The position numbers and the translations under genes were made by a program. The notes under the pieces were generated by a model, which did no database searches, had not been told where the DNA came from, and saw only the letters and a list, made by a program, of their open reading frames with translations. DNA of 64,000 bases from NCBI GenBank assembly GCA_002696735.1, contig NZSL01000007.1, forward strand, positions 383,175 to 447,174. Reading direction: 5' to 3'. Origin of the DNA: Methylophaga sp. Its GTDB lineage: Bacteria; Pseudomonadota; Gammaproteobacteria; Nitrosococcales; Methylophagaceae. The first letter of the stretch is position 1. Each line of letters begins with the position of its first letter. This document shows positions 9,553-58,173 of this stretch, piece after piece.

Positions 9553-9601
9553 TATTTTCAAATACCTGAAAATGATAGTTAATTTGTATTATTAACACTT
9601 A

Positions 9602-9877: not shown

Positions 9878-9881
9878 TGAA

Positions 9882-11081
9882 TCAATTGTCGAGATTGAAA
9901 TCATCCAGTTCAATCACTTCCCAAGGCAGTCCATATTTATTCATATCTTCCATAAATGGATCCGGATCAAACTGTTCAATGTTCCAGACGCCCGGTTTCT
10001 TCCACTTGCCTTCCAGCATCATTTTGGCGCCAATCATGGCCGGTACACCAGTGGTATAAGAAATCGCCTGCGACTGAACTTCAGCGTAACAATCCTGATG
10101 GTCTTTAATTTGATAGAGATACACAATTTTCTCTTTACCATCCTTAACACCCTTCACTACGCAACCAATACAGGTTTTACCTTTGGTACGTGGGCCAAGT
10201 GTTGAAGGGTCAGGTAATAAAGCTTTAAGGAACTGAATCGGTACAATCTGCTGACCGTTATAGTCAATTGGGTCAATACTGGTCATACCGACATTACCCA
10301 GTACTTCCAGATGTTTAAGATAGCTATCACCAAAGCTCATCCAGAACTGGGCACGTTTCAAAGTCGGGAAGTTGACTACCAGTGATTCCAGTTCTTCATG
10401 GTACATACGGTAAATATTGTAGTTACCAACCTCTTCTGGACAGGTAAAGCTGGCTTTTTTTGACATGGCCGGGGTGGTAACAAATTCACCATTTTCCCAG
10501 TGACGACACTCTGCCGTGACTTCCCGAATATTGATTTCCGGATTGAAGTTGGTGGCAAATGGATAACCATGATCGCCGCCATTGACGTCAATAATATCCA
10601 GCTCATGAATTTCATCGAAGTAATGTTTGGCAAGATAGGCAGTAAAGACGTTGGTGGCACCGGGATCAAAACCGCTGCCGAGTAATGCCATCAAACCGGC
10701 ATTTTCAAATTTTTCACGATAGGCCCACTGCCAGCTGTATTCAAACTTGGCGGTATCCAAAGGTTCGTAGTTAGCTGTATCTAGATAGTCAACACCAGCC
10801 GCCAGACAGGCGTCCATGATATGCAAATCCTGATAAGGTAACGCTACGTTGATGACCAGATCCGGTTTTTCCTTTTCCAGTAAAGCTGTCAGTTCTGGCA
10901 CGTTATCGGCATCGACCTGAGCAGTGCGGATTGGGCGATCCAGCTGCGCTGTTATGGCTTTACATTTGTCTTCATTACGGCTGGCCAGAATAATCTCTGA
11001 AAACACTTCCGGTAATTGGGCACATTTATGCGTAACGACGCCGCCAACACCACCGGCGCCAATAATGATCACTTTTGACAT
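9882..11081 (-). CDS. Carboxynorspermidine/carboxyspermidine dehydrogenase (saccharopine dehydrogenase family)
   Basis: An NADPH-dependent reductase that condenses aspartate beta-semialdehyde with a diamine (putrescine or diaminopropane) to give carboxy(nor)spermidine. The 399-residue product starts MSKVIIIGAGGVGGVVTHK, a Rossmann GxGGVGG fold, and continues with ASRNEDKCKAI, GSGFDPGATNVFTAYLA and VNGGDHGYPFATNFNPEINI, all typical of the LYS1-like CANSDH/CASDH family. AAGGA precedes the ATG. It follows speA by 24 nt. Putrescine from SpeA/SpeB is the likely substrate, giving carboxyspermidine. Confidence 0.92.
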   Translation of the reverse strand: MSKVIIIGAGGVGGVVTHKCAQLPEVFSEIILASRNEDKCKAITAQLDRPIRTAQVDADNVPELTALLEKEKPDLVINVALPYQDLHIMDACLAAGVDYLDTANYEPLDTAKFEYSWQWAYREKFENAGLMALLGSGFDPGATNVFTAYLAKHYFDEIHELDIIDVNGGDHGYPFATNFNPEINIREVTAECRHWENGEFVTTPAMSKKASFTCPEEVGNYNIYRMYHEELESLVVNFPTLKRAQFWMSFGDSYLKHLEVLGNVGMTSIDPIDYNGQQIVPIQFLKALLPDPSTLGPRTKGKTCIGCVVKGVKDGKEKIVYLYQIKDHQDCYAEVQSQAISYTTGVPAMIGAKMMLEGKWKKPGVWNIEQFDPDPFMEDMNKYGLPWEVIELDDFNLDN

Positions 11082-11105
11082 TGTTGAATCCTTATAAATC
11101 TGCAG

Positions 11106-13055
11106 TTATCTTTCAAAGAAGGTGTAGCCATTCATGCTGTCGCTGAAGGCACGTAACATTTGTTGACGCATTGGAACCGAAATCTTGCCATCTCGCACAG
11201 CTTGTTCAGCCAATTTCCGGAATTGTTCCTGCATTACTTTCGGATCGTATTCCACGTAGCTGAGTACATCGGCAATACTATCGCCATGAAACTCACGGAC
11301 AAAATCAAAGCTGCCATCCTCGTTAATATGCACACTGACCACGTTGGTATCACCAAACAGGTTATGCAAATCACCAAGGGTTTCCTGATACGCTCCAACC
11401 AGAAATACGCTCAGATAATATTCCTCACCCTCTATAAGTGGGTGTAATGGCAACGTTTTACGAATACCCTCTTCATAGGAAAACGAATCAATTTTGCCAT
11501 CACAATCACAGGTCATATCTGCGATGACCGCTGCGCGAGTGGGTTTTTCATTCAAGCGATGAATCGGCATGATGGGGAAGATCTGATCAATTGCCCAGAT
11601 ATCCGGCAACGATTGAAACAGACTGAAATTACCGTAATAAATATCGGACAGTAACTCTGGCAGACTTTCCAGTTCAGCAGAAACCCTGCGTGCCTGGGGC
11701 AACAATTCTGAGATTTTTTCCAAAATGGCCAATGAAACATTCTCGGCTAAAGCCCGTTCACGGAGAGTTGCCTGACCGTGATGGAATAACTCACGTAATT
11801 CATCACGATAATATATGGCATCGTTGTAACACTCCTGGAGGTTCTGCAGTTTTACATTATTCAGCACGGCATAGAGGTTCACCAGCATATCCGGACTATC
11901 ATCCGGAACAATCTCCGGAATCGTGCCAGGTTTATGATCACGGACTTCCAATACGTTAAATAACAACATGGAAGAATAGGCAATCAATGCCCGACCAGAT
12001 TCAGTAATGACGACTGGGTGTTCGATATCCAGCGGATCCAGACATTCCTGCAAGGTTTCGATAATGTTGTAGCAATATTCGTCCAGCCCGTAGTTCATAC
12101 TGTGTGTACTGTTCGAACGGGCACCTTCGTAATCGACTGCCAAACCGCCACCAAGGTCCATATAACCCATCGGTGCGCCTTCTTCGATTAAGCCGGTGTA
12201 AAAACGGCAGGCTTCCATTACGCCACTACGGATGTTACGGATATTGGGAATTTGTGAACCTAAGTGGCTATGCAGTAACTGCAGGCAATGCAACATATCG
12301 GCTTTTTTGAGCTGGTCGATAACTTCAAGCAGTGCATTGGTAGAGAGGCCAAAAATAGAACGGTCTCCACTGTCACCATTCCAATGACCTTCAACTGTCG
12401 AAGCCAGACGAATACGTAAACCTATCAGCGGATCAATCCCTAACGCTTTACTGCGTTCCAGAATAGTGGAGAGCTCCGTGGCGGTTTCCAATACAAAAAA
12501 GCATGGAATCCCCATTTGACGGGCATATAAACCCAGTTCAATAAATTCTTCGTCTTTATATCCATTACAGATAATCAAACTGTCATGGTCACGAAGCTGT
12601 GAAATAGCAATAATTAATTCGGCTTTACTGCCCGCTTCCAGACCATGATGGTAGCGACGACCATAATCAGCAATTTCCTCAATAACGTGGCATTGCTGAT
12701 TCACCTTGATTGGGAATACACCGCGATAGTGATTTTTATAGCCAGCTGTTTTAATCGCCCGGGCAAAAGCCTCGTTCAGTTGGGTAATTCGCAAATCCAG
12801 CAGGTTTTCAATGCGTAATACAGCGGGCATATCCAGGCCACGCTCTTTCATTCCATTAACAATATCGATCAATGGAACATGAATAGTCTTTTCACCAAAC
12901 TGCAAACTGACGACCGCATTGCCATCGGCGGAAATATCAAAATAATCCGTCCCCCAATCACGCACACCATAAAGCTTACTGCTATGTTGCGCACTCCACT
13001 CTTCAGGGGCAACATCAGGTGAGTGTGTATCAAGATTGGCATGGGTTTGTGTCAT
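11106..13055 (-). CDS. speA: Biosynthetic arginine decarboxylase
   Basis: Decarboxylates arginine to agmatine, the first step of putrescine synthesis. The 649-residue product (E. coli SpeA 658) shows the PLP-binding Lys117 in GVFPIKVNQ, the glycine-rich DLGGGLAVDYEG, and the C-terminal DMTCDCDGKIDSF segment with the substrate-contacting cysteine. It heads the polyamine block speA-dehydrogenase-nspC-speB, all on the minus strand. Upstream 13056-13164 contains no gene and should hold the promoter. Confidence 0.96.
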   Translation of the reverse strand: MTQTHANLDTHSPDVAPEEWSAQHSSKLYGVRDWGTDYFDISADGNAVVSLQFGEKTIHVPLIDIVNGMKERGLDMPAVLRIENLLDLRITQLNEAFARAIKTAGYKNHYRGVFPIKVNQQCHVIEEIADYGRRYHHGLEAGSKAELIIAISQLRDHDSLIICNGYKDEEFIELGLYARQMGIPCFFVLETATELSTILERSKALGIDPLIGLRIRLASTVEGHWNGDSGDRSIFGLSTNALLEVIDQLKKADMLHCLQLLHSHLGSQIPNIRNIRSGVMEACRFYTGLIEEGAPMGYMDLGGGLAVDYEGARSNSTHSMNYGLDEYCYNIIETLQECLDPLDIEHPVVITESGRALIAYSSMLLFNVLEVRDHKPGTIPEIVPDDSPDMLVNLYAVLNNVKLQNLQECYNDAIYYRDELRELFHHGQATLRERALAENVSLAILEKISELLPQARRVSAELESLPELLSDIYYGNFSLFQSLPDIWAIDQIFPIMPIHRLNEKPTRAAVIADMTCDCDGKIDSFSYEEGIRKTLPLHPLIEGEEYYLSVFLVGAYQETLGDLHNLFGDTNVVSVHINEDGSFDFVREFHGDSIADVLSYVEYDPKVMQEQFRKLAEQAVRDGKISVPMRQQMLRAFSDSMNGYTFFER

Positions 13056-13164
13056 CAGTATGACCCCCTTTGGCTTCAGTTAAATCGCGGGATTGTCACT
13101 ATTTTACGGATAAATTGCAAAAATATTATGACAGCACTACTACGTAACGAGATGAATCGCAGGC

Positions 13165-14220
13165 CTAGATAATTGGTTGCTCTTCTGGAACGCTGGTATC
13201 TGTTGATGGATCCAGATTGGTATTGAACGCCTCCACACTGTCCGCAACTTCGTCAGGGCGATTAAAACGCGCAATATGGAACAGCGCCTCACCCTCATTG
13301 ACCAGAGGAATATTGGTTCTGCCAATGATCACGCCACTACAGATTGCGACCACTTTGGTTTCCGATTTTTCATCACCATATGGGGCCGCGACCATTCCCA
13401 GAATATCGCCTTTGGTCACGTGGGCTCCCATAGGAACCAGCATTCTGAAAATTCCGCTTTGCGGTGCCCTCACCCAACTGCTTGAACGCGCGACAAATGG
13501 TTCTACCGGTTTTAAATGTTTCGTGCGTGATTCAGTCAACATGCCCAGCTTACGCATTACCGCCAATACGCCTCTGACACCAGCACGAATCGCCAGTTCA
13601 TTAAAACGTAATGCTTCACCGGCTTCATAGACGATAACCGGCACATTGGCCTGTTGACAGGCATAACGCAAAGAGCCCTCAATCAATCCTGAATTCAAAA
13701 TAACCGGGGCATTAAATGCTCTCGCCATTTCTTCAACGGCAGGATTATCCAACGCTGCACGAATCTGTGGCAGGTTATCGCGGTGAATGGCTGCAGTATG
13801 TAAATCTACGCCATGGGTACACTTATTCACCACCTCGCTCATAAAAAGATTGGCGAGGCGCGCCGCCAGAGAACCCTCTTCAGAACCGGGAAAACAGCGG
13901 TTTAAATCCCGGCGGTCTGGCAGATAACGCGTTTGATTGATAAAACCATATACGTTAACCACCGGGATGGTTATCAACGTCCCCTTAAGGCTTTTAAGCC
14001 GTTTACTTCTAACCAGCCGACGAATTATTTCCACGCCGACAATTTCATCTCCATGTACCGCACCGGACACAAATAAAACAGGCCCGTCACGTCGTCCACG
14101 CATCACCTGAACAGGCATACTCAAAGAGGTATGCATATACAAATCCGGTAGGGCTACATCAACTACTTTATTTTGTCCGGGGCCGATTTTTTGCCCGGCA
14201 ATAATCAACTCGTCAGGCAT
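13165..14220 (-). CDS. Succinylglutamate desuccinylase/aspartoacylase-family zinc hydrolase
   Basis: A 351-residue AstE/AspA-family metallopeptidase-like protein. Zinc-ligand motifs are visible: SGAVHGDEIVGVEI (His-x-x-Glu) and VDLHTAAIHRDNLPQ (His). A C-terminal beta-barrel includes TKGDILGMVAAPYGD. Its start codon overlaps the rimK stop by one base (TAATG), so it is translationally coupled to rimK. Genes of this type recur next to RimK and RimB in proteobacteria; a role in removing glutamates added by RimK, or in trimming another acyl-amino acid, is inference. Confidence 0.85.
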   Translation of the reverse strand: MPDELIIAGQKIGPGQNKVVDVALPDLYMHTSLSMPVQVMRGRRDGPVLFVSGAVHGDEIVGVEIIRRLVRSKRLKSLKGTLITIPVVNVYGFINQTRYLPDRRDLNRCFPGSEEGSLAARLANLFMSEVVNKCTHGVDLHTAAIHRDNLPQIRAALDNPAVEEMARAFNAPVILNSGLIEGSLRYACQQANVPVIVYEAGEALRFNELAIRAGVRGVLAVMRKLGMLTESRTKHLKPVEPFVARSSSWVRAPQSGIFRMLVPMGAHVTKGDILGMVAAPYGDEKSETKVVAICSGVIIGRTNIPLVNEGEALFHIARFNRPDEVADSVEAFNTNLDPSTDTSVPEEQPII

Positions 14221-15125
14221 TAACCACGGCCTTTGGTTTTAGTGGTTCCTGAAACAGAGTTCTTTTCAATAAAATCAATAATCAAACTGGCAATATCCTT
14301 ACCGGTTGCTGATTCGATACCTTCAAGCCCTGGCGAAGAATTAACCTCCATCACGACTGGTCCATGGTTCGAACGCAATAAATCCACACCGCACACATTC
14401 AGACCCATCGTTTTGGCTGCCCTGACAGCGGTAGCCCGCTCTGCCGGTGTAATGCGGATTAAATTGGCACTGCCCCCACGATGCAGATTGGATCGGAACT
14501 CGCCCTCTTTACCCTGGCGTTTCATTGCGGCAACCACTTTCTCACCCACTACAAAACAGCGAATATCCGCACCGCCGGCTTCTTTGATAAATTCTTGCAC
14601 CAAGATATTGGCTTTCATGCCCATAAAGGCTTCGATAACACTCTCAGCTGCCCCAGCAGTCTCTGCCAATACCACACCGATGCCCTGGGTACCTTCCAAT
14701 AATTTAATCACCAGCGGCGCACCACCGACCATCTTGATTAAATCGTCGACATCATCCGGACGATGTGCAAACCCCGTTACTGGCAGACCAATTCCGCGGC
14801 GTGACAGTAATTGCAGAGCGCGAAGTTTATCGCGTGAACGACTGATCGCCACTGACTCATTCAGTGGATATACATTCATCATTTCAAACTGGCGCAGTAC
14901 AGCAGTTCCGTAAAAGGTCACCGAAGCCCCGATCCGAGGAATCACCGCATCATAACCGGTCAGATTCTCGCCCTTGTAATGCACCTCCGGTTTCATCGAG
15001 GTGATATTCATATAACAACGCAGCACATCCAGCACATCCACTTCGTGACCTCGTGCCTCCGCTGCCTCAACCAATCGGCGAGTGGAATACAGCTTCGAAT
15101 TACGGGACAAAATGGCTATTTTCAT
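14220..15125 (-). CDS. rimK: Ribosomal protein S6-modifying glutamate ligase RimK
   Basis: An ATP-grasp ligase that adds glutamate residues to the C-terminus of ribosomal protein S6. The 301-residue product (E. coli RimK 300) opens [21 protein letters not shown] and contains the ATP-grasp signature [15 protein letters not shown], the [19 protein letters not shown] strand pair and the metal-binding [14 protein letters not shown]. It overlaps rimB upstream by 4 nt (ATGA) and touches the AspA-like gene downstream, so the three are one operon. Confidence 0.95.
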
Positions 15126-46218: not shown

Positions 46219-47244
46219 TCAGAACAAGGTATATGGTGACAGCCCCGTCCAGCGTTTAAAGGCACGGCGGTAGTTATTCATATCATTGAATCGAAGATAT
46301 TCGGCGATTTGCTGGTTATTGAAGTGCTTGACCTGAAACAGATAAATGGCGGTATTTTTTCGTGCCATGTCAATTTGCTGCTGAAAAGTGGTGTGATGCT
46401 TTTTTAATTTTCGTTTCATTGACGCGGGACTGATGCCAAACGCGGCTGAGACTTTTTCCAAATTAAGTGGTTGTCGAATATGCGATTGAATATAGTCGTA
46501 AAGCTGATCAATAAAGCTTTGGGGGCTATGCAGTGATAACAGCTGTTTATGAGCTTCTTTTAGTGCTCCGTGAATACTGAGCTGTGAAGTGTTTGGCCAG
46601 GGTTTATCCAGCAGTTCAATGGGCAATCGCATGCAGTTCATTTGCTGTTCAAAGGCTAGGTTCTGCCCCATATTGACCCAATATTGTTCAATATAAGTCG
46701 GTTCTGCATAAGTAAATTCACAACGCCAGGGCATTTTCTCTTTTGATAACCAGGACACCATTGAGATAAAGGCGGTCATGTGCGCTTCAATCAGAAACTG
46801 CTGTTGCTCTTGACTGCCAGTTGCGTCTTGCCAGAATAGAAATAACTCTTCTTCGTTGGTATAAAAACGTGGGGTAAATAGCGGCGATAAAATGGCGTGA
46901 AACTCACTGATAATGTCTATCGCCTGACGCAGGTTACTGACCAGCTGTAAGGCCTGACTCGCCGCACCGAAGCAGCCTGGCCATAAGCGTTGACCATACA
47001 AAAAACTGGTGTCATCGGCGTTGACTAATTTTCGGCAATTATTGATGAGCGTGAGGTATTGATCTGGACTGATACTTTTTTCTGCCAATCTGAAATCTTC
47101 AAGTTGAATACGGGTGCTTCTCAACAATTGACGACTATCGACCTCGCGTGACAAAGCTAACTCAACCAAAACTGCAGGTTGATAATGGGCAGCAATGCAC
47201 GCTGTGTCTATTTCATAGCCAAGCGTTTTAATGGGCGGCGTCAT
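46219..47244 (-). CDS. AraC-family transcriptional regulator
   Basis: A 341-residue regulator of the AraC/OruR type. The N-terminal arabinose-binding-like half (about residues 20-210) is followed by the double helix-turn-helix: LEKVSAAFGISPASMKRKLK and the conserved second motif NQQIAEYLRFNDMNNYRRAF-KRWTG. Its ligand is unknown. It follows the GGDEF gene by only 4 nt, so both are co-transcribed. Confidence 0.9.
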   Translation of the reverse strand: MTPPIKTLGYEIDTACIAAHYQPAVLVELALSREVDSRQLLRSTRIQLEDFRLAEKSISPDQYLTLINNCRKLVNADDTSFLYGQRLWPGCFGAASQALQLVSNLRQAIDIISEFHAILSPLFTPRFYTNEEELFLFWQDATGSQEQQQFLIEAHMTAFISMVSWLSKEKMPWRCEFTYAEPTYIEQYWVNMGQNLAFEQQMNCMRLPIELLDKPWPNTSQLSIHGALKEAHKQLLSLHSPQSFIDQLYDYIQSHIRQPLNLEKVSAAFGISPASMKRKLKKHHTTFQQQIDMARKNTAIYLFQVKHFNNQQIAEYLRFNDMNNYRRAFKRWTGLSPYTLF

Positions 47245-47248
47245 TTGC

Positions 47249-48163
47249 TTAGGTGGCGTTTGAAAGTTGCTGTCTGGTTTTACTGATTTCTAGATTGAGA
47301 CGTTTAATCAAAGAATCCGAATCATCCGTTCTCGCCATGGTGGTGACCACCGTGGCTGATAAATACACCCGTTGATGATGTTCGCGAGTTCGATAGGCAA
47401 AGCTGGAAACAGCGTTTTGTAAATCAATGCTCATCTGCTGCGCATCGTGTTCAGAGGTATTATGTAATAACACCACAAAGCGATCACCGGCCAAACGGCA
47501 GATCAGATCTTCATCACGCAGATTGAGCAGTAATAGCTGACAGATAAGCTGCAAAATATGATCACTTTCTGCTGCGCCATAGAGACGGTTAATCATATTA
47601 AAGTTATCCAGATCAACGGCAATTAGAGCAAGTGGTTGCTGGAGTTTTTTACTTTCAGCCAAAGAGAGTTTTAATTGTTTTTTCAGATAGGCGGCGCCCC
47701 CCACTGGGATCAGTTTGTCGAATAGGCGATGTTCACGAAAGTACCGCTCACGCTTGACCATTTGTGCACTGATGGCGATTTCTTCTTGATGCCAGTGATA
47801 GATACCAACACTTAACAGTATTAAAGCGATAGGGATAGGTAAGCTTTCTAACCAGTTATGCCAGATGAGCGACGATGGCATACGGATAAACTCATCCGCT
47901 ACATCCATTGACCATGAAAACACAATGGCACATAAGCCGAGTGCCAGTAATTGGGTCACTCTGCCTGCCGGTCGACTGCGTAATAACAGCGCCAGCCAGA
48001 ATAAAGCCAGAATGACCATTCCCCCTTCTGAAAAGACATCCAGCCAACTAATTTCAACTGTGGGTTTCAGGTCCCCCCACACACTAATAATCAGTAAACC
48101 AATGCCAATAGCTATAGCGAGGCCATAAGAATAACAAGTCTGTAAAAAAGCTCTTTTTTTCAT
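47249..48163 (-). CDS. Membrane GGDEF protein with degenerate active site
   Basis: A 304-residue protein with about four N-terminal transmembrane segments (residues 12-150, short MASE-like module) and a C-terminal GGDEF domain starting LALIAVDLDNFNMIN. The signature motif is AGDRF instead of GGDEF, losing the catalytic acidic pair, so it is probably not a cyclase; the inhibitory RxxD is also not in place. It may bind c-di-GMP or act as a membrane sensor. First gene of the minus-strand run GGDEF-AraC-metallophosphoesterase. Confidence 0.85.
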   Translation of the reverse strand: MKKRAFLQTCYSYGLAIAIGIGLLIISVWGDLKPTVEISWLDVFSEGGMVILALFWLALLLRSRPAGRVTQLLALGLCAIVFSWSMDVADEFIRMPSSLIWHNWLESLPIPIALILLSVGIYHWHQEEIAISAQMVKRERYFREHRLFDKLIPVGGAAYLKKQLKLSLAESKKLQQPLALIAVDLDNFNMINRLYGAAESDHILQLICQLLLLNLRDEDLICRLAGDRFVVLLHNTSEHDAQQMSIDLQNAVSSFAYRTREHHQRVYLSATVVTTMARTDDSDSLIKRLNLEISKTRQQLSNAT

Positions 48164-48224: not shown

Positions 48225-48242
48225 ATGACAACTTCATTACAT
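48225..48242 (-). promoter_or_regulatory. Degenerate Pho-box-like sequence facing the GGDEF-AraC-phosphoesterase genes
   Basis: Read on the minus strand, ATGTAAT-GAAG-TTGTCAT matches the CTGTCAT-N4-CTGTCAT consensus at 5 and 6 of 7 positions. A -10 is not clear. Confidence 0.3.
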
Positions 48243-48462
48243 ATAAGGCAGTCAAATCAGCTCACAAAAAGTTGAATTATTTTCTCCAATAAACGCTGAT
48301 TTTTTTTGCTAAACATAAATTAACCAATTGAATTAATAGAACATTTACTTCTTTAAAATTGCCTTCCTGGTTTTTAAAAACAATACATCCCTCAGTCAAA
48401 TGAGCTCTAAACAGCACCAACCATGCTTATAAGTCATTGATTTTTAGTATTTTTATTTTTAG

Positions 48463-48496
48463 CTGTCATCGATCTGTCATTTACCATCCCTAGACT
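48463..48496 (+). promoter_or_regulatory. Pho box and -10 element of the phytase operon
   Basis: CTGTCAT-CGAT-CTGTCAT (48463-48480) matches both 7-bp halves of the PhoB binding consensus perfectly. TAGACT at 48491-48496, 10 nt downstream, fits the usual spacing at which the Pho box replaces the -35. The receptor ATG follows at 48533. Confidence 0.88.
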
Positions 48497-48532
48497 TGCC
48501 GCCATCCACCACTATGACAACAAGGGTAGGTA

Positions 48533-51034
48533 ATGAAATTGACAGTAGAAACCAGAGAGCGGCCAACTCATAAACTCAGTCTGATTGCGTTGAGCATCGC
48601 GAGCGTTTTCAGTAATGGTGCTTTTGCCGCTGATGAAATCAATATGGAAAAGGTGCAGGTTTTCGGTCAAGCCGTACAGATTGATAAAGCGCTGAATGAA
48701 CAACGTAATTCAAACAGTATTGAAAGCGTGGTTCACGCCGATGGTATTGGTCAATTACCGGATGATAATGCTGCCGAAGCTTTGCAACGTTTGCCCGGTG
48801 TTTCAGTTGAAAATGATCAGGGTGAAGGACGTTTTGTCACAGTGCGAGGTCTGGCACCGGAGTTAAATGCTGTCACGATCAACGGGACCAATATCCCTTC
48901 ACCAGAGGATGGCACACGTGCCGTAGCATTAGACGTCTTACCCAGCGAGCTGATTCAGTCACTCTCTGTGGTGAAAACGTTGACACCAGATATGGATGCC
49001 AACTCTCTTGGTGGTACGGTCAATGTCAGAAGCTTATCGGCGTTTGATCATGATGGTTTGTTTTATACCCTCTCCGCTGAAGGTAGCTATGACGACAATA
49101 CCGATCAAACCAGTCCCAAAGGATCTGGTGCCTTCAGTAATATCTTTAGTATTGGCGAAGGCGTTGATAATTTTGGCGTTGCGGCGGCTCTGAGCTGGCA
49201 AAAACGGGATTTTGGTTCGGATAATGTGGAAACCGGTGGTGCTTGGGATTTTGATGGGAGCCCACGTTTAGGAGAGCTGGAACAGCGTGATTATGATATC
49301 ACCCGTGAACGGCTGGGCCTTGGCGTTAACTTTGATTACAAAGCGGATATCCATACCAACTATTATCTGCGAACCCTATTCAGCCAGTTTACCGATACTG
49401 AAACGCGTAATGCAGCGGGTATGGAGTTTGCCGATCCCCTACTCCCCAATGAGTCCGGTGACGGTGCTGAAGGTTTTCGTGAAGTAAAAGATCGTAAAGA
49501 AACCCAAGAAATCCAGTCTTATGTCTTTGGTGGTGAAAAAACTATCGACTTGTGGACAATCAATGGACAAGTTGGTTACAGCCGTGCGAGTGAAGATTCA
49601 CCCGGCCATATTGCCGGTGCAAAATTTGTCGGGGATTTTGATGGTGTTGGCTATGGCAGTACTTCAAAACCCACACTGAATGCTGGTGCAGATTATTATG
49701 ATCCCAACAGTTTTGAATTAGATAGCGTGGAATGGGAAGAGCAAAAAACCACCGATACTGAAAAAAACATCAAGTTTGATCTTGCCAGAGACTTTGATTT
49801 AAAAGGTTATGCATCACAAATAAAATTTGGTGGCAAATTATCACGTCGTGAAAAAGATAATGATTTAGAGGCTTGGGAATTTGAAGATTTCGGCAGCAAT
49901 GACACCAGTCTTGCTGCATATAGTGCTGGCAATGTGGATTATAGTTTGAATCAATTTGGTAACGGCATCAGTAGCTCGGCTGTTGAGGCGTTACTGAACA
50001 AATTGAATAAAGCCGATAACGTTAACGAAGAAGAATCACGTATTAACGATTATGTGATGAACGAGGACATTAACTCAGCCTATGTCATGAACACCCTGGA
50101 TTTGGATGAGTGGACCATCATTGCCGGTTTGCGATACGAAGGGACGCGTTTTAAAGCCAAAGGGACTGGCATCAGAGACGACGAGTTTGAAACTATCTCC
50201 AGTAAAAACAGCTACAACCATTGGTTGCCTGGTTTACACGGTACTTATTATCTAGATGATAAAACACAAATTCGGGCGGCCTGGACCAATAGCGTGGTTC
50301 GTCCGACCTTTGAAGCACTGGCTCCAGGGTTCTCAATTGAAAGTGGCGACAGTGCCAGCTTTGGTAATCCTGACTTAGATCCGATGACATCGAAAAACCT
50401 GGATCTCGGCATTGAACATTACATGGGTCGTGCGGGTGCGGTTTCTGCCTATGTTTTCTATAAAGATATATCCGACTTTGTGTATAACACCGATGTGTCT
50501 GGCACTGGCCTATTCGCTGACTTTGATGAAGCGGTGACATTTGCCAATGGTGATTCAGCTGAGGTCTACGGCATCGAACTCGCCTATTCCCAAAAGCTCA
50601 GTTGGTTACCTGCCCCCTGGAATGGCCTTTTAGTGGGTGCTAATGCGACCTTCAGTCAATCCGATGCTGAAATCGAAGGGCTTGGACAAACACGTAGCAT
50701 TGATCTGCCCGGCCAATCAAAACAAGTGGGTAATCTGATGATCGGGTGGGAAAACGACAAGCTGAGCATGCGTTTATCGACCAACTATAAATCGTCTTAT
50801 TTATCTGAAGTAGCCGCTATCGATGATGAAGCACTGGATCAATATGTGGACTCACAAGTGTTTTTGGATTTCGGCGCCAGCTATTTCTTAACTAAAAATG
50901 CTCAAATCAGTCTGGAAGTGAAAAATATCACTGACGAAAGTTTCTATGTCTACAACCGCAGCAGTTCATATAACGCGCAATATGAAGAATACGGTCCGAC
51001 CATCAAGCTTGGTTTTACATTAACCAATTTCTAA
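48533..51034 (+). CDS. TonB-dependent receptor, probable phytate/organophosphate transporter
   Basis: An 833-residue outer-membrane receptor. A signal peptide (cleaved about residue 33, NGAFA-ADE) precedes a TonB-box-like EKVQVFG, a plug domain (IGQLPDDNAAEALQRLPGVS, RFVTVRGLAPELNAVTING) at about 60-180 and a beta-barrel ending in the usual terminal aromatic (GFTLTNF). It belongs to the Xanthomonas/Caulobacter-type receptor subgroup used for carbohydrates and other large solutes. It is first in the Pho-box operon with phytase, ExbB, ExbD, TonB and PhoX, which indicates organophosphate rather than iron uptake. Confidence 0.92.
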   Translation: MKLTVETRERPTHKLSLIALSIASVFSNGAFAADEINMEKVQVFGQAVQIDKALNEQRNSNSIESVVHADGIGQLPDDNAAEALQRLPGVSVENDQGEGRFVTVRGLAPELNAVTINGTNIPSPEDGTRAVALDVLPSELIQSLSVVKTLTPDMDANSLGGTVNVRSLSAFDHDGLFYTLSAEGSYDDNTDQTSPKGSGAFSNIFSIGEGVDNFGVAAALSWQKRDFGSDNVETGGAWDFDGSPRLGELEQRDYDITRERLGLGVNFDYKADIHTNYYLRTLFSQFTDTETRNAAGMEFADPLLPNESGDGAEGFREVKDRKETQEIQSYVFGGEKTIDLWTINGQVGYSRASEDSPGHIAGAKFVGDFDGVGYGSTSKPTLNAGADYYDPNSFELDSVEWEEQKTTDTEKNIKFDLARDFDLKGYASQIKFGGKLSRREKDNDLEAWEFEDFGSNDTSLAAYSAGNVDYSLNQFGNGISSSAVEALLNKLNKADNVNEEESRINDYVMNEDINSAYVMNTLDLDEWTIIAGLRYEGTRFKAKGTGIRDDEFETISSKNSYNHWLPGLHGTYYLDDKTQIRAAWTNSVVRPTFEALAPGFSIESGDSASFGNPDLDPMTSKNLDLGIEHYMGRAGAVSAYVFYKDISDFVYNTDVSGTGLFADFDEAVTFANGDSAEVYGIELAYSQKLSWLPAPWNGLLVGANATFSQSDAEIEGLGQTRSIDLPGQSKQVGNLMIGWENDKLSMRLSTNYKSSYLSEVAAIDDEALDQYVDSQVFLDFGASYFLTKNAQISLEVKNITDESFYVYNRSSSYNAQYEEYGPTIKLGFTLTNF

Positions 51035-51067
51035 ACCATCTTGATTATCAACTTTAAAGTGAAGCAA

Positions 51068-52996
51068 ATGAAAAAAAACCAATTCAAGCTAAAACTGACC
51101 GCATTGGCGTCTTGCATGATGATGACAACCTCACTTACGGTCATGGCAGAGGCTGAACTGCTGTCTATTTCAAGTAATAGCCAGCCAATTGAAGCCGCCC
51201 AACTGTTAACTCAACCTCAAATAATGCCTAAGGCCGATAGCCTGCTGTCTTATGAACATAAGGGCATTGTTATTGAGGATAAACAAGGCCGGCAACTCAG
51301 TCTGTTAAAAGGTAATTTTGGCAGTATTGACCATAGATTAGTTCAAAAAGGCCTGTTACTGGCTACGGTAGATGTGGATCGTCAGCAAGCCATGGTGACG
51401 GTATTTGATAAAACCGCCCAAAACTGGAATCAACCCGTTTATATACCGCAACCGGCTTTTAAGATTGATGGTGTCTGCCTGTATCAGGATGAAGCCCATA
51501 ATGGCTTTTTGTTTCTAGTGGGCGAAGAAGGTCATGGTGAGCAATGGTTGGTTTCTGACGCGACCAATTCAGTAGCACAGCCAAAATTAATCCGTCGCTT
51601 GAGCACGCCTCCCAATAGTGAATATTGTCAGGTCGATGATAAACAATCATTGATGTATATCAACGAAGAAAACGTCGGTATCTGGGCCTACCAGGCACAT
51701 CCTGAGGCAGATCTCATCCGTGATCCTGTCGCATTAATGAAACCCTTTGGAGAGTTATCTCAAAGTGCGGCGGGAATGGCATTGGTACCTGGTGGATTAC
51801 TGGTACTCGATTCAGAAGCTAAGACATTACATGCCTATCAAAATAACGATGGCGTTTGGCATTCGCTTGCAAGCTACCCATTAACCAACCTATCGGATCC
51901 AGAAAATATCAGTGCTCGGCTAAACGATAAAAAATTAACCATTCGCATTAAACACGATGACGGTCTGGCAACCTTCAGCCTGCCCTGGAATTATCAAGAC
52001 ACTGCTCAAGCAGCGACGATTCCAGTGATTAAACCTCAACTACAAACTGATCCCGTGCCGAGTTTAGGTGATGCAGCGGATGATCCGGCCATTTGGGTTA
52101 ATCCAAAAAACCCTCAACAAAGTCTGATTTTAGGCACTGATAAACAAGGTGGTTTAGTGGTGTATGACTTGAAAGGGAAAACGCAACAACACCTGGCGGT
52201 GGGTCGGGTGAACAATGTCGATGTGCGAGCTGGTTTTAACTTGAACGGCCAAAAAATTGATTTAGCCGTCGCCAGTAATCGTGACCACAACTCGTTACAT
52301 GTGTTTGCCATTGCCCCTTCCTCGGGAGTTGTCAGTGAATTAGGACAGGTGCCAACGGCAAGTCAGGATATTTATGGCTTGTGTATGTATAAAAATCAGG
52401 CCGGTGATATTTACACCATTGTGAATGACAAAGATGGACGCTTTTTCCAATATCGCATGCAGGATAACCACGGCAAGATTGATGCTGAACTGGTACGTGA
52501 ATTTAGCGTGGGCTCACAACCCGAAGGCTGTGTCGCGGATGATAAAAATCATCGTTTGTTTGTCGGTGAAGAAAATAATGCCGTTTGGGTGTTGGATGCC
52601 CGTGCAGATAAAGCATCAACGTTAACGGAAGTCATTGCAGACGGTGACCATCTTAAAGCGGACATAGAAGGTCTCAGCTTGTATCAAACGCAGCAAGAGA
52701 ATTATCTGGTGATCTCCAGCCAGGGTAATGATAGTTACGTCGTAATCGATGCACTCCCCCCATTTGCTTACCGTGGTGTTTTCCGGGTTGGCTTTAATAC
52801 CGATGCAGGCATTGATGGTGTTTCGGAAACCGATGGTCTGGATGTCACCAGCGTCAATCTGGGTGAACCATGGCATCAAGGCATGTTGGTGGTACAAGAC
52901 GGACGCAACCGGATGCCGGTAGACAATCAAAATTTCAAATATGTGCCTTGGTCAGATATCGCTGACCAACTTGGCCTTTCTGCGAATAAAAAATAA
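51068..52996 (+). CDS. Beta-propeller phytase (two-domain form)
   Basis: A 642-residue exported enzyme that releases phosphate from phytate in a calcium-dependent way. A signal peptide (to about VMA-EAE) is followed by a less conserved propeller-like first half (about 40-325) and a typical beta-propeller phytase second half starting DAADDPAIWVNPKNPQQSLI and including GTDKQGGLVVYDL, VASNRDHNSLHVF and NDKDGRFFQY. Two-domain phytases of this build are known from other bacteria. ATG at 51068, 33 nt after the receptor gene; no terminator between them. Confidence 0.93.
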   Translation: MKKNQFKLKLTALASCMMMTTSLTVMAEAELLSISSNSQPIEAAQLLTQPQIMPKADSLLSYEHKGIVIEDKQGRQLSLLKGNFGSIDHRLVQKGLLLATVDVDRQQAMVTVFDKTAQNWNQPVYIPQPAFKIDGVCLYQDEAHNGFLFLVGEEGHGEQWLVSDATNSVAQPKLIRRLSTPPNSEYCQVDDKQSLMYINEENVGIWAYQAHPEADLIRDPVALMKPFGELSQSAAGMALVPGGLLVLDSEAKTLHAYQNNDGVWHSLASYPLTNLSDPENISARLNDKKLTIRIKHDDGLATFSLPWNYQDTAQAATIPVIKPQLQTDPVPSLGDAADDPAIWVNPKNPQQSLILGTDKQGGLVVYDLKGKTQQHLAVGRVNNVDVRAGFNLNGQKIDLAVASNRDHNSLHVFAIAPSSGVVSELGQVPTASQDIYGLCMYKNQAGDIYTIVNDKDGRFFQYRMQDNHGKIDAELVREFSVGSQPEGCVADDKNHRLFVGEENNAVWVLDARADKASTLTEVIADGDHLKADIEGLSLYQTQQENYLVISSQGNDSYVVIDALPPFAYRGVFRVGFNTDAGIDGVSETDGLDVTSVNLGEPWHQGMLVVQDGRNRMPVDNQNFKYVPWSDIADQLGLSANKK

Positions 52997-53005
52997 GGAG
53001 TCATC

Positions 53006-53707
53006 ATGGAATCTTCAATGCATGAAATGACCATGTGGGGCTTGGTGAGTGAAGCCAGTCTGCTGGTAAAAATCGTAATGATTATTCTGGTTTTAGCCTC
53101 TATGGTGAGTTGGTATTTAATTATCTGGCGGTCCAGGGTATTGGGCCGTTTGGAAAAACAAAATCGCCAATTCCAGCTACGGTTCAGACAAACAGCAGAT
53201 CTCACGAAGCTGGACTCGACTGCAAATAACCAGACTGTTTACCAAGCACTTCCGGCTATTTATCAAGCAGGTTTATTGGAATATGAAAAATATCGCCAAC
53301 TCGATGCGCTCCCCCAGGATGAGATTGTCGAGAATGTCGAACGGGCCATGCTGGTCAATATTGGTGAACAGGAAGTCGAGTTGGAAAAAGGGCTTTCTTA
53401 TTTAGCCACTATCGGTTCGGTCAGTCCCTATATCGGTCTGTTTGGCACTGTGTGGGGCATTATGAATTCGTTTATCGGTTTGTCTCAAGTTGAGCAAGCG
53501 ACCTTAAATACCGTTGCACCGGGTATTGCTGAGGCCCTTATCGCCACAGCAATTGGCTTGTTCGCTGCGATACCGGCGGTAGTGGCTTACAACCAATTGA
53601 GCAAACGTGCCGGATCATTAAGCACACGTTATTACCATTTTGGTAATGAATTTATTACCCGGTTGCAGCGTGTGTTGCACCGCACACCATTAGCTAAAGT
53701 TGCGTGA
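53006..53707 (+). CDS. exbB: ExbB/TolQ-like proton channel subunit
   Basis: A 233-residue MotA/TolQ/ExbB-family inner-membrane protein: one helix near residues 20-42, then two helices after YLATIGSVSPYIGLFGTVWG (the family signature, about 130-155 and 170-195). With ExbD it uses the proton gradient to energise TonB. AAGGAG precedes the ATG; only 9 nt separate it from the phytase gene. Confidence 0.92.
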   Translation: MESSMHEMTMWGLVSEASLLVKIVMIILVLASMVSWYLIIWRSRVLGRLEKQNRQFQLRFRQTADLTKLDSTANNQTVYQALPAIYQAGLLEYEKYRQLDALPQDEIVENVERAMLVNIGEQEVELEKGLSYLATIGSVSPYIGLFGTVWGIMNSFIGLSQVEQATLNTVAPGIAEALIATAIGLFAAIPAVVAYNQLSKRAGSLSTRYYHFGNEFITRLQRVLHRTPLAKVA

Positions 53708-53714
53708 ATTCATC

Positions 53715-54164
53715 ATGATAAGAAAACCTGTTACCAAACACGCCCTCAAAGCTGAAATGAATGTGGTGCCCTATATCGATGTCATGCTGGTACTGCTGGT
53801 CATCTTTATGGTTACTGCACCCTTGCTGGTGCAAGGCGTCAAACTTGAACTGCCTAAAGTCGCAGCCAAAGCGTTACCAACAGATAGTCAAAAAACCATT
53901 TTGAGTTTATCTGTGGTGGCTGATGGGAGTTATTACTGGAATGTCGGTTCTGAGGTGGACATCAAATCACGCTCTGATCAGGCGGTAACATTGGATGAGA
54001 TGGTCATAAAAATTGACCAGATCAGATTGCAACATCCTGATTTGCTTTTCTTTATTCGGGGTGACAAAGCAACAGATTATGCGTCAGTGGTCAAAGCCAT
54101 CGCGGCATTGCAACAAGTCGGCATCGAAGATATCGGACTGATCACGGAGTCACCCGATGACTGA
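53715..54164 (+). CDS. exbD: ExbD/TolR-like subunit
   Basis: A 149-residue protein with a single N-terminal helix preceded by the conserved NVVPYIDVMLVLLVIFMVTA, including the proton-carrying Asp, and a periplasmic C-terminal domain. Partner of ExbB. I use the ATG at 53715 (an in-frame TTG at 53700 overlaps exbB). It overlaps the tonB start by 8 nt. Confidence 0.92.
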   Translation: MIRKPVTKHALKAEMNVVPYIDVMLVLLVIFMVTAPLLVQGVKLELPKVAAKALPTDSQKTILSLSVVADGSYYWNVGSEVDIKSRSDQAVTLDEMVIKIDQIRLQHPDLLFFIRGDKATDYASVVKAIAALQQVGIEDIGLITESPDD

Positions 54165-55005
54165 TGTAGGATTTTATGATGACCGTTTTATCAATCCACC
54201 AGCCGAGAATGCCGGATTAAGTACATCAGCATTATTACTGGTCGGTTTATTTCATCTGGCCATGGCGGGATTGTTATTAAACTCATGGACACCTGCTCAG
54301 CAGGATGAGCCCAAACTGAGTACGATTAAAATTCAAATGTTAAGGCTGTCAAAGCCTGCCCCTGAAATCAAACCGGTTGAGCCGGTTCCGCTGACTATCC
54401 CGGAACCGACTCAACCTGTGTTTGACCCCCCACCCGTGGTACAAAAAACTGAACCAACACCCGTGGTTCAGAATGAACTGGCTTTTAAACGGGTTGAAGA
54501 AAATCCGATACCTGAGAAAGTTATACCAAAACCTATCAAGCAAAAGCAGGCTGAGCCAGAGAAAAAGATCGTCGAAAAAATGATTGAACAACCTGAAAAA
54601 AAGCGTGTTCAGCCCACCGCTAAACCGACTAAACCAGCCTTAGCGCAGCAAACAAAAAAGACCGATAGCGCTGCGAAGACACCGGTTAAGCAGGATGTGA
54701 TCGCAAGCGCTGAGGCTAGTGAGCCCTTTTCGGTCGAGCGCTATAAACCAATAGAAAAACAGGCTCCAGAATATCCTCGTGGCGCATTACGAAAAGGCCT
54801 GGAAGGTGATTGCACGGTACGTTATACCGTCAATACCCAAGGTAAAGTGGAAACACCTGAAGTCCTGGCAAACTGCCACCCATTGTTTAAAAAGCCGTCT
54901 TTAGAAGCCGCCAAAACCTTTCGATACTCACCCAGAATGGTGAATGGAAATGCGGTAGCCGTGAATAACGTACTTAATACTTTTGAATATCGTATCAACC
55001 AATGA
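54157..55005 (+). CDS. tonB: TonB-family energy transducer
   Basis: A 282-residue TonB. One helix (about residues 25-43, LLLVGLFHLAMAGLLLNSW), a long Pro/Glu/Lys-rich spacer spanning the periplasm (about 60-185, with repeats of PEP/KPT type) and the C-terminal TonB fold beginning APEYPRGALRKGLEGDCTVR. It transmits energy to the TonB-dependent receptor encoded in the same operon. It overlaps exbD by 8 nt and phoX by 4 nt. Confidence 0.92.
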   Translation: MTDVGFYDDRFINPPAENAGLSTSALLLVGLFHLAMAGLLLNSWTPAQQDEPKLSTIKIQMLRLSKPAPEIKPVEPVPLTIPEPTQPVFDPPPVVQKTEPTPVVQNELAFKRVEENPIPEKVIPKPIKQKQAEPEKKIVEKMIEQPEKKRVQPTAKPTKPALAQQTKKTDSAAKTPVKQDVIASAEASEPFSVERYKPIEKQAPEYPRGALRKGLEGDCTVRYTVNTQGKVETPEVLANCHPLFKKPSLEAAKTFRYSPRMVNGNAVAVNNVLNTFEYRINQ

Positions 55006-56993
55006 AAAATAAACTTTCTATGAATAAGCCTTGCGTTTCCGACTTTCATCAACAGATGTCAGCACATGATGATATCGCCATTAATACCAGTGCCGAACCC
55101 AATTTAAATCAAATTGTGTTGTCTCGGCGTCAAATGCTGAAAGGTAGTTTAAACGCTGCGGCATTGGGTTTTTTTGGACTCAATTTGTCGTCAAATCTGG
55201 TGTTTGCCGCAGGCAAAAACAATCTGAATATCCCCTTTATCGGCTTTAATAGCATCCAGCCTCAAACCGATCCTGGATTTGATAAAGTTATGGTTGCCGA
55301 TGGCTATCAAGCGAAAGCCTTTTTTTCTTGGGGTGATCCGGTTGAAACAGGGGCAACGGCTTGGAAGACCGATGCCACAAACAGCTGGCAAGAACAATTA
55401 AAACAAGCCGGCCAAAATCATGATGGCATGCATTTTTTTGCTTTTCCAGACGATCATAATCGCGGCTTAATGGTAATTAATCATGAATATGTGAATCCGA
55501 CCCTCCACCAAGATGGCTTCACCTATGTCGATGGAAAACGCCGAATGGAAGATGTCAAAAAAGAACAGGCTGCCCATGGTGTCAGTGTCATTGAGGTCAA
55601 AAAAGACAACCAGGGCCAATGGCAGCGCGTATATCCATCGGTTTATAACCGTCGTATTTCGGCCCTAACCGCGATGCAGGTCAGTGGGCCTTTGGCTGGT
55701 CATGATTTGTTAAAAACCGTGGATGATCCGGCGGCGATGGATATCATCGGCACGCTAAACAATTGTTCTAATGGCTTTACCCCTTGGGGCACCTATCTGG
55801 CGTGCGAAGAAAACTGGCATAACTATTTTACAAATCAGGATGCTTCGGATTATCAGTCACGGGTATCACATCATCGTTATGGCATTTCAACAGGAAAAGA
55901 AGCCAAAAACTATGGCTGGAATACCATTGATAAACGCTTTGATGCCACGCCCAACCCTGCTCTCGCCCATCAAGGCTATGTCAATGAACCTAATCGCTTT
56001 GGTTGGGTGGTTGAAATTGATCCGTTTGATCCAGAGAGCAAGCCAATCAAACGTACGGCGTTTGGCCGATTCTGTCGTGAGGGTGTCACCCCAGCTTTAG
56101 CTGAAAATGGACAGATGGCTTTTTACTCGGGCGATGATACCCGGGGTGAATATGTCTACAAGTTTGTGCCGGAACAACGTTTCGATAAAACCCAGCCTCA
56201 TAAACATCGTGACATGCTGGATCGTGGAACGTTATATGTCGCTCGTTTTAATGATAATGGTTTGGGTCGCTGGTTGCCCTTGATACATGGACATTCGGGT
56301 TTAACGGCTGAAAATGGTTTTGCCAGTCAGGCTGATGTATTGGTCAATGCCCGTGCTGCAGCTGACCAACTAGGTGCTACCCCTATGGATCGACCGGAAT
56401 GGGCAACGGTGAATCCGCATAACCTCGATGTGTATATATCGTTAACCAATAACTATTTGCGTGGTAATGAATTTTCGCTCAACGCTGCCAATCCCCGTCC
56501 TGATAATCGCCATGGACAGATTATCAAGATACAAGAAGATCAGGCCGATCCAGCCGCTATCACCTTTCAATGGGAATTATTTGTCGTGGCAGGTGAAAAA
56601 GCCGGCACACAGAATACTGATGGCCAGCCGGTTGCTGAGCATTTAGTCGGCAATATTCAAGGTGATATATTTTCTTCACCCGATGGTTTAGGATTCGATA
56701 AAGATGGTCGGTTATGGATTCTAACGGACTATGATGATGACGATCCGGTGATGGACAACATGGGCTGTAATCAAATGTTGTGCGCTAACCCCGAAACTCG
56801 TGAAATTAAACGCTTTCTGGTGGGGCCAAGAGGTTGTGAGATTACCGGGATAACCTGGAGCCCGGACTATACAGCGATGTGGGTGAATATTCAGCATCCT
56901 GGTCTAAGCTATCCTGCCAGTGATGGCAAAACCCGTCCGCGCTCCACCACTGTACTTATTACTAAAGATGATGGTGGTGTGATCGGTCGCTAG
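55002..56993 (+). CDS. phoX: PhoX-family alkaline phosphatase (Tat-exported)
   Basis: A 663-residue phosphatase of the PhoX/DUF839 family, which uses calcium and iron to hydrolyse phosphomonoesters. A Tat signal SRRQMLKGSLNAAALGFFG lies at about residues 42-60. Diagnostic blocks include GFTPWGTYLACEENWHNYF, FCREGVTPALAENGQMAFYS and GPRGCEITGITWSPD. It overlaps tonB by 4 nt (ATGA) and closes the Pho-box operon. It could remove phosphates from the lower inositol phosphates left by the phytase; this division of labour is inference. Confidence 0.93.
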   Translation: MKNKLSMNKPCVSDFHQQMSAHDDIAINTSAEPNLNQIVLSRRQMLKGSLNAAALGFFGLNLSSNLVFAAGKNNLNIPFIGFNSIQPQTDPGFDKVMVADGYQAKAFFSWGDPVETGATAWKTDATNSWQEQLKQAGQNHDGMHFFAFPDDHNRGLMVINHEYVNPTLHQDGFTYVDGKRRMEDVKKEQAAHGVSVIEVKKDNQGQWQRVYPSVYNRRISALTAMQVSGPLAGHDLLKTVDDPAAMDIIGTLNNCSNGFTPWGTYLACEENWHNYFTNQDASDYQSRVSHHRYGISTGKEAKNYGWNTIDKRFDATPNPALAHQGYVNEPNRFGWVVEIDPFDPESKPIKRTAFGRFCREGVTPALAENGQMAFYSGDDTRGEYVYKFVPEQRFDKTQPHKHRDMLDRGTLYVARFNDNGLGRWLPLIHGHSGLTAENGFASQADVLVNARAAADQLGATPMDRPEWATVNPHNLDVYISLTNNYLRGNEFSLNAANPRPDNRHGQIIKIQEDQADPAAITFQWELFVVAGEKAGTQNTDGQPVAEHLVGNIQGDIFSSPDGLGFDKDGRLWILTDYDDDDPVMDNMGCNQMLCANPETREIKRFLVGPRGCEITGITWSPDYTAMWVNIQHPGLSYPASDGKTRPRSTTVLITKDDGGVIGR

Positions 56994-57105
56994 CTATGGG
57001 AGGGGGAATGTTGCCGTATTGATAATTTTGTATTTGAGTGATGCATCGGTATGCTTGCAAGGATTCTGTTTATCCTTAAACCTTAAAAAGACATCGGGCA
57101 GCATA

Positions 57106-57561
57106 ATGAATAAAAAGTTACTTTTCGTCATCGGCATAATTCTGTTCGTTGCTATTATCATGATAGCTTCGCGTTTGATAAATACGCCTTCACCCTACCT
57201 CACTTCTGACAATGATCAGGAATTGCCAACCGAGACAACGATTGAGGAAGGTTTTATGGAGGCTGAAAAATTCATTAATTCCAGAGCGCCCATCAAAATC
57301 GATGATGAAACCCAGCTTATTAAGGCTTTAGCCGGTCCCGGCGATTTGATGACTTATTATTATTCATTAACCAATGTCACTATTAACGATGTGAATCCGA
57401 CGGCGGTGCTGGAGGATATCAAACCCAAATTGCTTGCCAGCCTTTGCAGTAATGCTGATATGCAGCCTGTTCTAAAGGCGGGTGCCAAGCTTGTATATGT
57501 CTATTCCGATAAAAATCACCAAGATGTTGGCCGTATTGAGGTAGTGGAAGCTGATTGTTAA
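57106..57561 (+). CDS. Hypothetical membrane-anchored protein
   Basis: A 151-residue protein with one N-terminal helix (KKLLFVIGIILFVAIIMIASRL) and an exported, slightly acidic domain containing an aromatic strand DLMTYYYSLTNVTI and two C-terminal cysteines (LCSNADM and the final EADC) that might form a disulfide. I do not recognise a family. I use the ATG at 57106; the longer frame from 57019 lacks a signal. It is 112 nt after phoX and need not belong to that operon. Confidence 0.6.
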   Translation: MNKKLLFVIGIILFVAIIMIASRLINTPSPYLTSDNDQELPTETTIEEGFMEAEKFINSRAPIKIDDETQLIKALAGPGDLMTYYYSLTNVTINDVNPTAVLEDIKPKLLASLCSNADMQPVLKAGAKLVYVYSDKNHQDVGRIEVVEADC

Positions 57562-57711
57562 GACCGCTTTCGCCATAAGCAATAGAGCGTGCCCACTTTT
57601 CTCCACGTTATTTTCGTTATTGTTAAATGGGAACGGACTGTATTTTTGACGGGTCTTTAATTTATCAATAAACCATTTCACGATTACTCTTTAATCAAAA
57701 GGCTGATTGTC

Positions 57712-58173
57712 ATGACGAAATACCAAAAGTCACCTAAAGTTGTTGAACAACTATCACCTGAGCAACATTACGTCACCCAACAATGCGGTACTGAACCACC
57801 ATTCGATAATGCTTATTGGGACAATCACGAAGCTGGGCTTTACGTCGATGTAGTTTCTGGTGAACCCTTATTTGCTTCAGTAGATAAGTTTGATAGCGGA
57901 ACTGGCTGGCCAAGCTTTACCCGTCCAGTGCAGAATGAAAATGTGAACGAAAATTTTGATGACAGTCTGGGCATGCGCCGTGTTGAGGTTCGCTCAGTAC
58001 ATGGTGACAGTCATTTAGGTCATGTTTTCCCTGATGGCCCTGAAGAAGCAGGAGGAATGCGGTATTGCATCAACTCAGCATCCCTGCGGTTTATTCCCGT
58101 TGAACAGCTTGAAGCAGAAGGTTACGACGAGTTTAAAAATCTGTTTTCAGAAACTTTAGGTGAAACAAAATGA
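57712..58173 (+). CDS. msrB: Peptide methionine-R-sulfoxide reductase
   Basis: A 153-residue cytoplasmic repair enzyme reducing methionine R-sulfoxide. Signature [10 protein letters not shown] and catalytic Cys in [13 protein letters not shown]. The two CxxC zinc sites of E. coli MsrB are absent, and the usual resolving cysteine position before GWPSF is Thr; the Cys in QQCGTEPPF may resolve instead. AAGG precedes the ATG. It overlaps msrA by 4 nt. Confidence 0.95.

Follow-up and report, generated by a model that had tools for sequence, protein, structure and literature searches.

A predicted PhoB- and AraC-controlled module for inositol-phosphate uptake in Methylophaga, encoded with a putative membrane c-di-GMP receptor

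Much organic phosphorus is stored as phytate, and to our knowledge the route by which phytate enters Gram-negative bacteria is unsettled. A receptor next to a phytase is said to have been described by Lim et al. in the ISME J in 2007. How such a route might be built, and when it would be opened, is the question raised by a locus of Methylophaga sp. (GCA_002696735.1, contig NZSL01000007.1), of which a stretch of 64,000 nucleotides, here called the window, was analyzed. Behind a Pho box, genes for a TonB-dependent receptor, a beta-propeller phytase, ExbB, ExbD, TonB and the alkaline phosphatase PhoX follow one another, and a sequence-only reading had taken them for a self-contained Pho-controlled operon. 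That reading is supported by the order of these genes, conserved in 12 of 12 relatives, and by a PhoB gene in the genome, but it misses two divergent genes for an AraC-family regulator and a membrane protein with a degenerate GGDEF domain, a paired 14-bp element and a second Pho-like box. The whole unit starts at 46219, with the divergent AraC/GGDEF pair, which is the more surprising part of the locus. In our judgement, the locus is probably a module for the uptake of inositol phosphates under the control of PhoB and AraC, with a putative receptor for cyclic diguanylate (c-di-GMP) in the membrane.

All six operon genes have Pfam matches (Table 1), and their starts and stops reproduce the proposed gaps of 33, 9 and 7 nucleotides and overlaps of 8 and 4 nucleotides, the 7-nucleotide gap holding only with the ExbD start at the inner ATG (53715). 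The perfect Pho box and the -10-like hexamer ten nucleotides downstream were likewise recovered as the sequence-only reading had given them. The tandem CTGTCAT repeats with a 4-nucleotide spacer upstream of a -10 have the layout of a Pho-regulon promoter, and in a pattern search CTGTCATCGATCTGTCAT was the sole perfect copy in the 3.30-Mb genome; with up to two mismatches, 18 + 14 sites were found genome-wide vs 8 + 10 for the reversed pattern. The genome encodes PhoB (329.3 bits vs a cut-off of 296.2), and Pho regulation of the module via this protein is predicted. Promoter-like sites as such were not enriched over shuffles (20 vs 22.8). No terminator-like site is listed on the + strand from 56993 to 57800, and the 3' end of the operon is thus provisional. 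An imperfect dyad, CTTG...CAAG, lies between the -10 and the receptor start (window 48495-48527) and is present by eye in most relatives; it might be a further operator. Elsewhere in the genome, a Pho box with one mismatch (L025, C2:126575-126592) stands 87 nucleotides upstream of a gene assigned by Pfam to polyphosphate kinase. Four more such boxes (L026-L029) lie near genes that, judged without a domain scan, have no evident phosphate role, and lone near-match boxes are therefore weak evidence.

Table 1. Features of the Methylophaga locus (positions in the window).
Feature	Position	Strand	Remarks
AraC-family regulator	46219..47244	-	PF12625 Arabinose_bd 78.9 bits; HTH_18 42.4 bits
Membrane protein with degenerate GGDEF (AGDRF) and intact RxxD I-site; putative c-di-GMP receptor	47249..48163	-	PF00990 88.2 bits
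Pho-box-like site facing the GGDEF/AraC genes	48225..48242	-	3 mismatches
14-bp element, copy 1	48251..48264	+	GTCAAATCAGCTCA; candidate AraC operator
14-bp element, copy 2	48395..48408	+	GTCAAATGAGCTCT; candidate AraC operator
Pho box facing the operon	48463..48480	+	CTGTCATCGATCTGTCAT; 0 mismatches
-10-like TAGACT	48491..48496	+	10 nucleotides past the Pho box
TonB-dependent receptor (TIGR01782 type)	48533..51034	+	626.9 bits, cut-off 310; plug and barrel by Pfam
Two-domain beta-propeller phytase	51068..52996	+	PF02333 324.6 bits
ExbB, TolQ-like	53006..53707	+	Pfam MotA_ExbB
ExbD, TolR-leaning	53700..54164	+	Pfam ExbD; inner ATG at 53715
TonB	54157..55005	+	TonB_C, PF03544 53.4 bits, cut-off 24.6
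PhoX alkaline phosphatase	55002..56993	+	PF05787 530.4 bits

Conservation among close relatives supports the unit on both strands. Of 63 genomes from the order, 13, including the one that holds the window, contain the phytase (E <= 1e-30), and the genome-context search that had been suggested as a check returned the receptor-phytase-ExbB-ExbD-TonB-PhoX order in all 12 other genomes of the family, with minor blemishes: the contig of L089 ends before phoX, the TonB of L085 lies in two frames, and the phytase match of L088 (G004) contains one stop codon. Relatives with 90% and 63% phytase identity on two public contigs are Methylophaga metagenome-assembled genomes; the family is called Methylophagaceae in GTDB, and NCBI assigns Methylophaga to Piscirickettsiaceae. 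Ahead of the receptor, the Pho box has no mismatch in eight of the 12 relatives, two mismatches in three and three in one, at 52-60 nucleotides from receptor starts as placed by us. Across the 13 intergenic excerpts of the family, window included, an operon-strand box with up to three mismatches occurs in 13 (0.41 expected from 200 Markov resamples of these mutually related sequences). The AraC/GGDEF pair, with its two genes 4 nucleotides apart, is divergent from the receptor in 12/12 relatives. On its strand, too, a Pho-like site with up to three mismatches is present in 13/13 excerpts (0.41 expected), and with up to two in 9/13 (0.04 expected).

A truncated second copy of the operon was seen on contig C11 (L054, 2427-9615), where the C-terminal half of the phytase only is followed by ExbB, ExbD, TonB and PhoX. 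Over 7189 bp this copy shares 99.15% identity with L081, another genome of the genus, and its identity to the window is 73-75%; the ends of C11 match contigs C12, C7 and C13 of the same genome, and an AAA/OLD-like gene adjoins. In view of this identity and these contig ends, a native duplication is not claimed; the copy stems either from recent transfer, next to a repeated element, or from a chimeric assembly or contamination.

Between the two halves of the locus lies the 14-bp element, with the consensus RGTCAAATYRGCTCA from 65 sites. Allowing two mismatches, at least two copies on the same strand were found in 13/13 family regions, in 9/9 loci of one other family (f161) and in 10/15 other excerpts with the pair, at expected means of 0.14, 0.04 and 0.14, respectively (50 resamples). 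Two copies are thus present at 32 of the 37 loci with the pair; four of the remaining five have one copy, on the opposite strand in L125, and L132 has none. With a somewhat relaxed pattern, four exact matches were found in the genome itself, of which two lie at this locus. At one mismatch the element is not enriched genome-wide (73 sites vs 115 for the reversed control), so that lone weak sites carry no meaning. Its co-occurrence with the pair makes the element a candidate operator to which AraC may bind.

The protein encoded beside AraC combines a GGDEF domain with an N-terminal region of 156 residues, in which four hydrophobic stretches stand out when values are averaged over the family, the fourth barely above threshold. 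This region has 15 invariant residues across 24 diverse rows and gave no Pfam match at cut-off in the three proteins scanned. Searched for alone, it was found in 4 of 369 genomes of the class, all four at phytase loci, and in 21 of 398 genomes of the phylum, 20 strongly and one weakly (1.8e-7, with internal stop codons). Of the strong matches, 19 are at phytase loci, one of these (G568, L113) without a profile-detected receptor. At the twentieth, L156 (G776, 7935-14945), the AraC/GGDEF pair is transcribed away from a receptor gene, behind which a metallophosphoesterase gene lies, and a phytase was not found; this may be the same switch with another enzyme.

The GGDEF domain itself is degenerate at the A-site. 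Over 37 homologues, position 4 of the GG(D/E)EF motif, where an active diguanylate cyclase has an acid, is R in 35, C in two and E in none. The I-site is intact, with R in 36/37 and D in 37/37. Asp (37/37) and Asn (35/37), together with a further Asp (34/37), are kept at the positions that in PleD are the metal Asp, the Asn and the guanine Asp, respectively. Mutation to AGDAF abolished the effect of VCA0965 on motility, and AGDEF itself can be active (PMC3974145; this and the other papers cited by PubMed Central (PMC) number are represented by excerpts, to which statements about them are limited). The argument for inactivity therefore rests on the lost Glu. SgmT, with a degenerate A-site and an intact I-site, binds c-di-GMP (PMC3509222), and the same is predicted here.

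A wider survey of phytase loci placed the module among its variants. PF02333 matches were found in 10 of the 369 class genomes and 42 of the 398 phylum genomes, with G073, G408 and the window's own in both sets, and 49 loci were scored with profiles for which the window and its relatives had served as the source. Beyond the family, the proposed context search was answered in part: the five-gene order from receptor to TonB is present in nine genomes of f161 and on two Acinetobacter plasmids, but energiser genes were not found by profile scoring at the other 40 phytase loci. PhoX follows the f161 module with a strong match in four loci (L117, L118, L122, L126), and L120, which ends at a contig edge, shows a 22-bit trace of it. 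Of the 40 loci lacking the energiser, 22 have a receptor upstream on the same strand, at most 4.5 kb away; in nine it is on the opposite strand, in two it is further off, and in seven it was not found. The Acinetobacter pittii plasmid carries the pair, receptor, phytase (receptor and phytase each split over two frames) and ExbB/ExbD/TonB, with two genes annotated as alkaline phosphatase upstream. On the A. junii plasmid the pair, receptor, phytase and ExbB/ExbD/TonB are likewise present, the phytase and ExbB genes being broken into several frames, and a scan of 9 kb showed no PhoX. In Catenovulum and Pseudoalteromonas, plasmids (L151, L152) carry the pair, receptor and phytase, with a second phosphatase gene between the latter two. 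L104 and L114 have receptor, phytase, PhoX and the pair without ExbBD/TonB, which suggests that an energiser cassette has entered or left the space that separates phytase from phoX. The pair was present at 20 of the 27 other gammaproteobacterial phytase loci and at none of the 22 loci of other classes, in two of which GGDEF is weakly matched at a distance of almost 10 kb.

Furthermore, the nature of the energiser and the enzymes was assessed. ExbB scores above the curated TolQ cut-off (249.2 vs 221 bits) and below the curated ExbB cut-off (167.9 vs 206.2), thus falling outside the curated ExbB family; TonB has a TonB_C domain, and ExbD is just short of the TolR cut-off (126.5 vs 127.3). ExbB is 46% identical to the cell's own TolQ, 43% to E. 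coli TolQ and 39% to E. coli ExbB, and ExbD is 42% identical to the own TolR, though its identity to E. coli ExbD (37%) exceeds that to E. coli TolR (32%). These scores and identities point to a TolQR-leaning stator together with a TonB protein, with mixed evidence for ExbD. As a TonB gene adjoins, ExbB may function as a TonB energiser. In the ExbD tree the module sequences form one clade (support 80/87), and in the ExbB tree they were not resolved as a single clade. The C-terminal half of the phytase is canonical, residues 324-637 aligning to the solved 3-phytase 3amr (E 7e-75), and its N-terminal half is weak (35.4 bits). PhoX matches PF05787 over its full length and the solved PhoX 3zwu (E 5e-154). 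The PhoX leader contains SRRQMLKG in the leader alignment, which we take to resemble a twin-arginine signal.

Taken together, the locus could work as follows. At low phosphate, active PhoB would bind the two outward-facing Pho boxes and turn on both halves. Phytate or similar inositol phosphates would cross the outer membrane through the receptor, with energy from the module's own TolQR-like ExbBD and TonB, and phytase and PhoX would then free phosphate, probably in the periplasm. AraC, most likely on the two 14-bp elements, would permit or boost transcription with substrate present. The membrane GGDEF protein most likely cannot make c-di-GMP but would bind it at the I-site, and would pass on to AraC either this state or a signal that the membrane domain perceives. 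In the most far-reaching version of this scheme, the degenerate-GGDEF protein would be a c-di-GMP receptor in the membrane, and its membrane domain, of a kind not described before, would be dedicated to organophosphate loci. As a new kind of regulatory unit, it would gate an AraC activator at paired operators, and phytate scavenging would be licensed jointly by the PhoB starvation signal, substrate and c-di-GMP. We put this version forward tentatively and hold it to be somewhat short of probable.

A number of points weigh against this explanation or limit the counts that carry it. An operon-strand Pho box with up to three mismatches occurs in 5/9 f161 loci and 4/14 other loci with the pair, some excerpts being short, and an other-strand box in 3/9 and 5/14, respectively. 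PhoX was not seen near the module in four of the nine f161 loci (L119, L121, L123, L124), and the pair is absent at seven of the 27 gammaproteobacterial phytase loci (L101, L102, L103, L106, L107, L108, L131). Phytases of three Pseudomonas strains are without evidence of PhoBR control and may be substrate-induced (PMC5082522); this would fit the AraC part of the scheme and would speak against uniform Pho control. The 14-bp motif was drawn partly from the counted loci, 17 of the 37 regions having been read beforehand, and it occurs twice in 17 of the 20 regions unread at that time. Its absence from 29/29 phytase loci without the pair (about 650 bp scanned each) speaks for the explanation; of these loci, 22 are from other classes and seven are gammaproteobacterial. 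The searches for the membrane domain scored about ten candidates per genome, with a query that contained some of the loci found. Over 34 loci (L150, with broken frames, left out), the distances of the genes speak for co-inheritance, correlating most closely for AraC-GGDEF (r = 0.975), AraC-phytase (0.955) and GGDEF-phytase (0.953), and less so with the receptor (GGDEF-receptor 0.889, AraC-receptor 0.873, receptor-phytase 0.859), values that also reflect shared ancestry. As most residues of the metal and guanine sites have been retained, the GGDEF domain may bind GTP or have some activity left. A structure model (three sequences, mean predicted local distance difference test score 60.1) is confident only for the GGDEF part, after about residue 155, the membrane half being mostly below 50.

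The kept metal Asp and guanine residues, with the catalytic Glu lost, would also suit a binding scaffold, and degenerate GGDEF domains can act independently of c-di-GMP (PMC3974145). The locus might then be a plain Pho-regulated receptor-phytase-PhoX cluster, in which the GGDEF protein is only a structural partner or anchor for AraC and senses no c-di-GMP. The combination of RxxD kept in 36/37 homologues with the A-site Glu lost in 37/37 is, however, the layout of known c-di-GMP receptors, and we regard a mere anchor as rather unlikely. A different doubt concerns the cargo. A lipobox-like LASC is present in the phytase leaders of the window, L079, L080, L084 and L085, those of L087 and L090 contain a Cys, and by sequence the receptor's sole match among solved structures is a weak one to the colicin I receptor (50.6 bits). 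Both would suit an external or surface phytase, with a receptor for the import of lower inositol phosphates, or of metal-phytate to supply iron, rather than of intact phytate. Against this, the corresponding Cys is absent from L081-L083 and L086 (the alignment rows of L088 and L089 are cut there), and the phosphate-starvation boxes point to phosphorus rather than iron; such a receptor seems to us improbable, to much the same degree as the anchor.

Doubt may also be cast on whether the TolQR-like ExbBD-TonB is dedicated to its neighbour. Further ExbB- and TonB-type loci are present elsewhere in the genome, and L104 and L114 do without any energiser in the cluster; the cassette might serve other receptors, or the receptor might use the main cell TonB. 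The cassette lies inside the cluster in 13/13 family loci and 9/9 f161 loci, which argues against this, and we consider a non-dedicated energiser unlikely. We thus keep to the uptake module with its own energiser and a putative c-di-GMP receptor.

Parts of this module have known counterparts. In Citromicrobium a receptor adjoins a phytase and phytic acid has already been proposed as its substrate, and, unlike for the Methylophaga module, an own energiser, PhoX, AraC/GGDEF pair or paired element is not reported in the excerpt (PMC3400609). The Pus systems of Flavobacterium are likewise outer membrane TonB-dependent systems of phosphate starvation co-located with phosphatases, but they are of the SusCD type and from Bacteroidetes, and the excerpt reports neither a dedicated ExbBD-TonB nor a degenerate GGDEF partner (PMC8115612). 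A TonB system with PhoB-dependent control is found in P. aeruginosa exbB2-exbD2-tonB4, which, however, belongs to the VreI regulon and lies beside two-partner secretion genes, with no phytase among the genes listed in the excerpts (PMC7035377, PMC4971064). The degenerate A-site and intact I-site are shared with SgmT and PopA, a predicted cytoplasmic histidine kinase and a response regulator, respectively (PMC3509222), whereas here they occur in a membrane protein encoded with an AraC regulator. Control of a transcription factor by direct contact with a c-di-GMP protein is known from E. coli PdeR (PMC5052742); the AraC-GGDEF contact is only proposed here, and PdeR is an active phosphodiesterase, whereas Pfam found only the GGDEF domain in the Methylophaga protein. 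The pairing of receptor and phytase is thus known. The version with energiser and PhoX was not found described in the literature searched: among open-licence PMC texts no paper combined phytase, TonB-dependent receptor, ExbB and PhoX, in line with the earlier view that this is not a standard described unit, and searches for phytase with TonB, diguanylate cyclase, c-di-GMP or Methylophaga gave no recognised description of it among the papers listed, in a literature from which subscription journals were mostly absent.

In P. fluorescens, low phosphate leads to expression of the phosphodiesterase RapA and depletion of c-di-GMP (PMC3032545), a link that differs from the one proposed for the Methylophaga module. 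Overall, this module is a compact, conserved candidate for phytate uptake, in which receptor, energiser, enzymes, promoters and a specific regulator lie together, and it offers a candidate link between c-di-GMP and the use of organic phosphorus.

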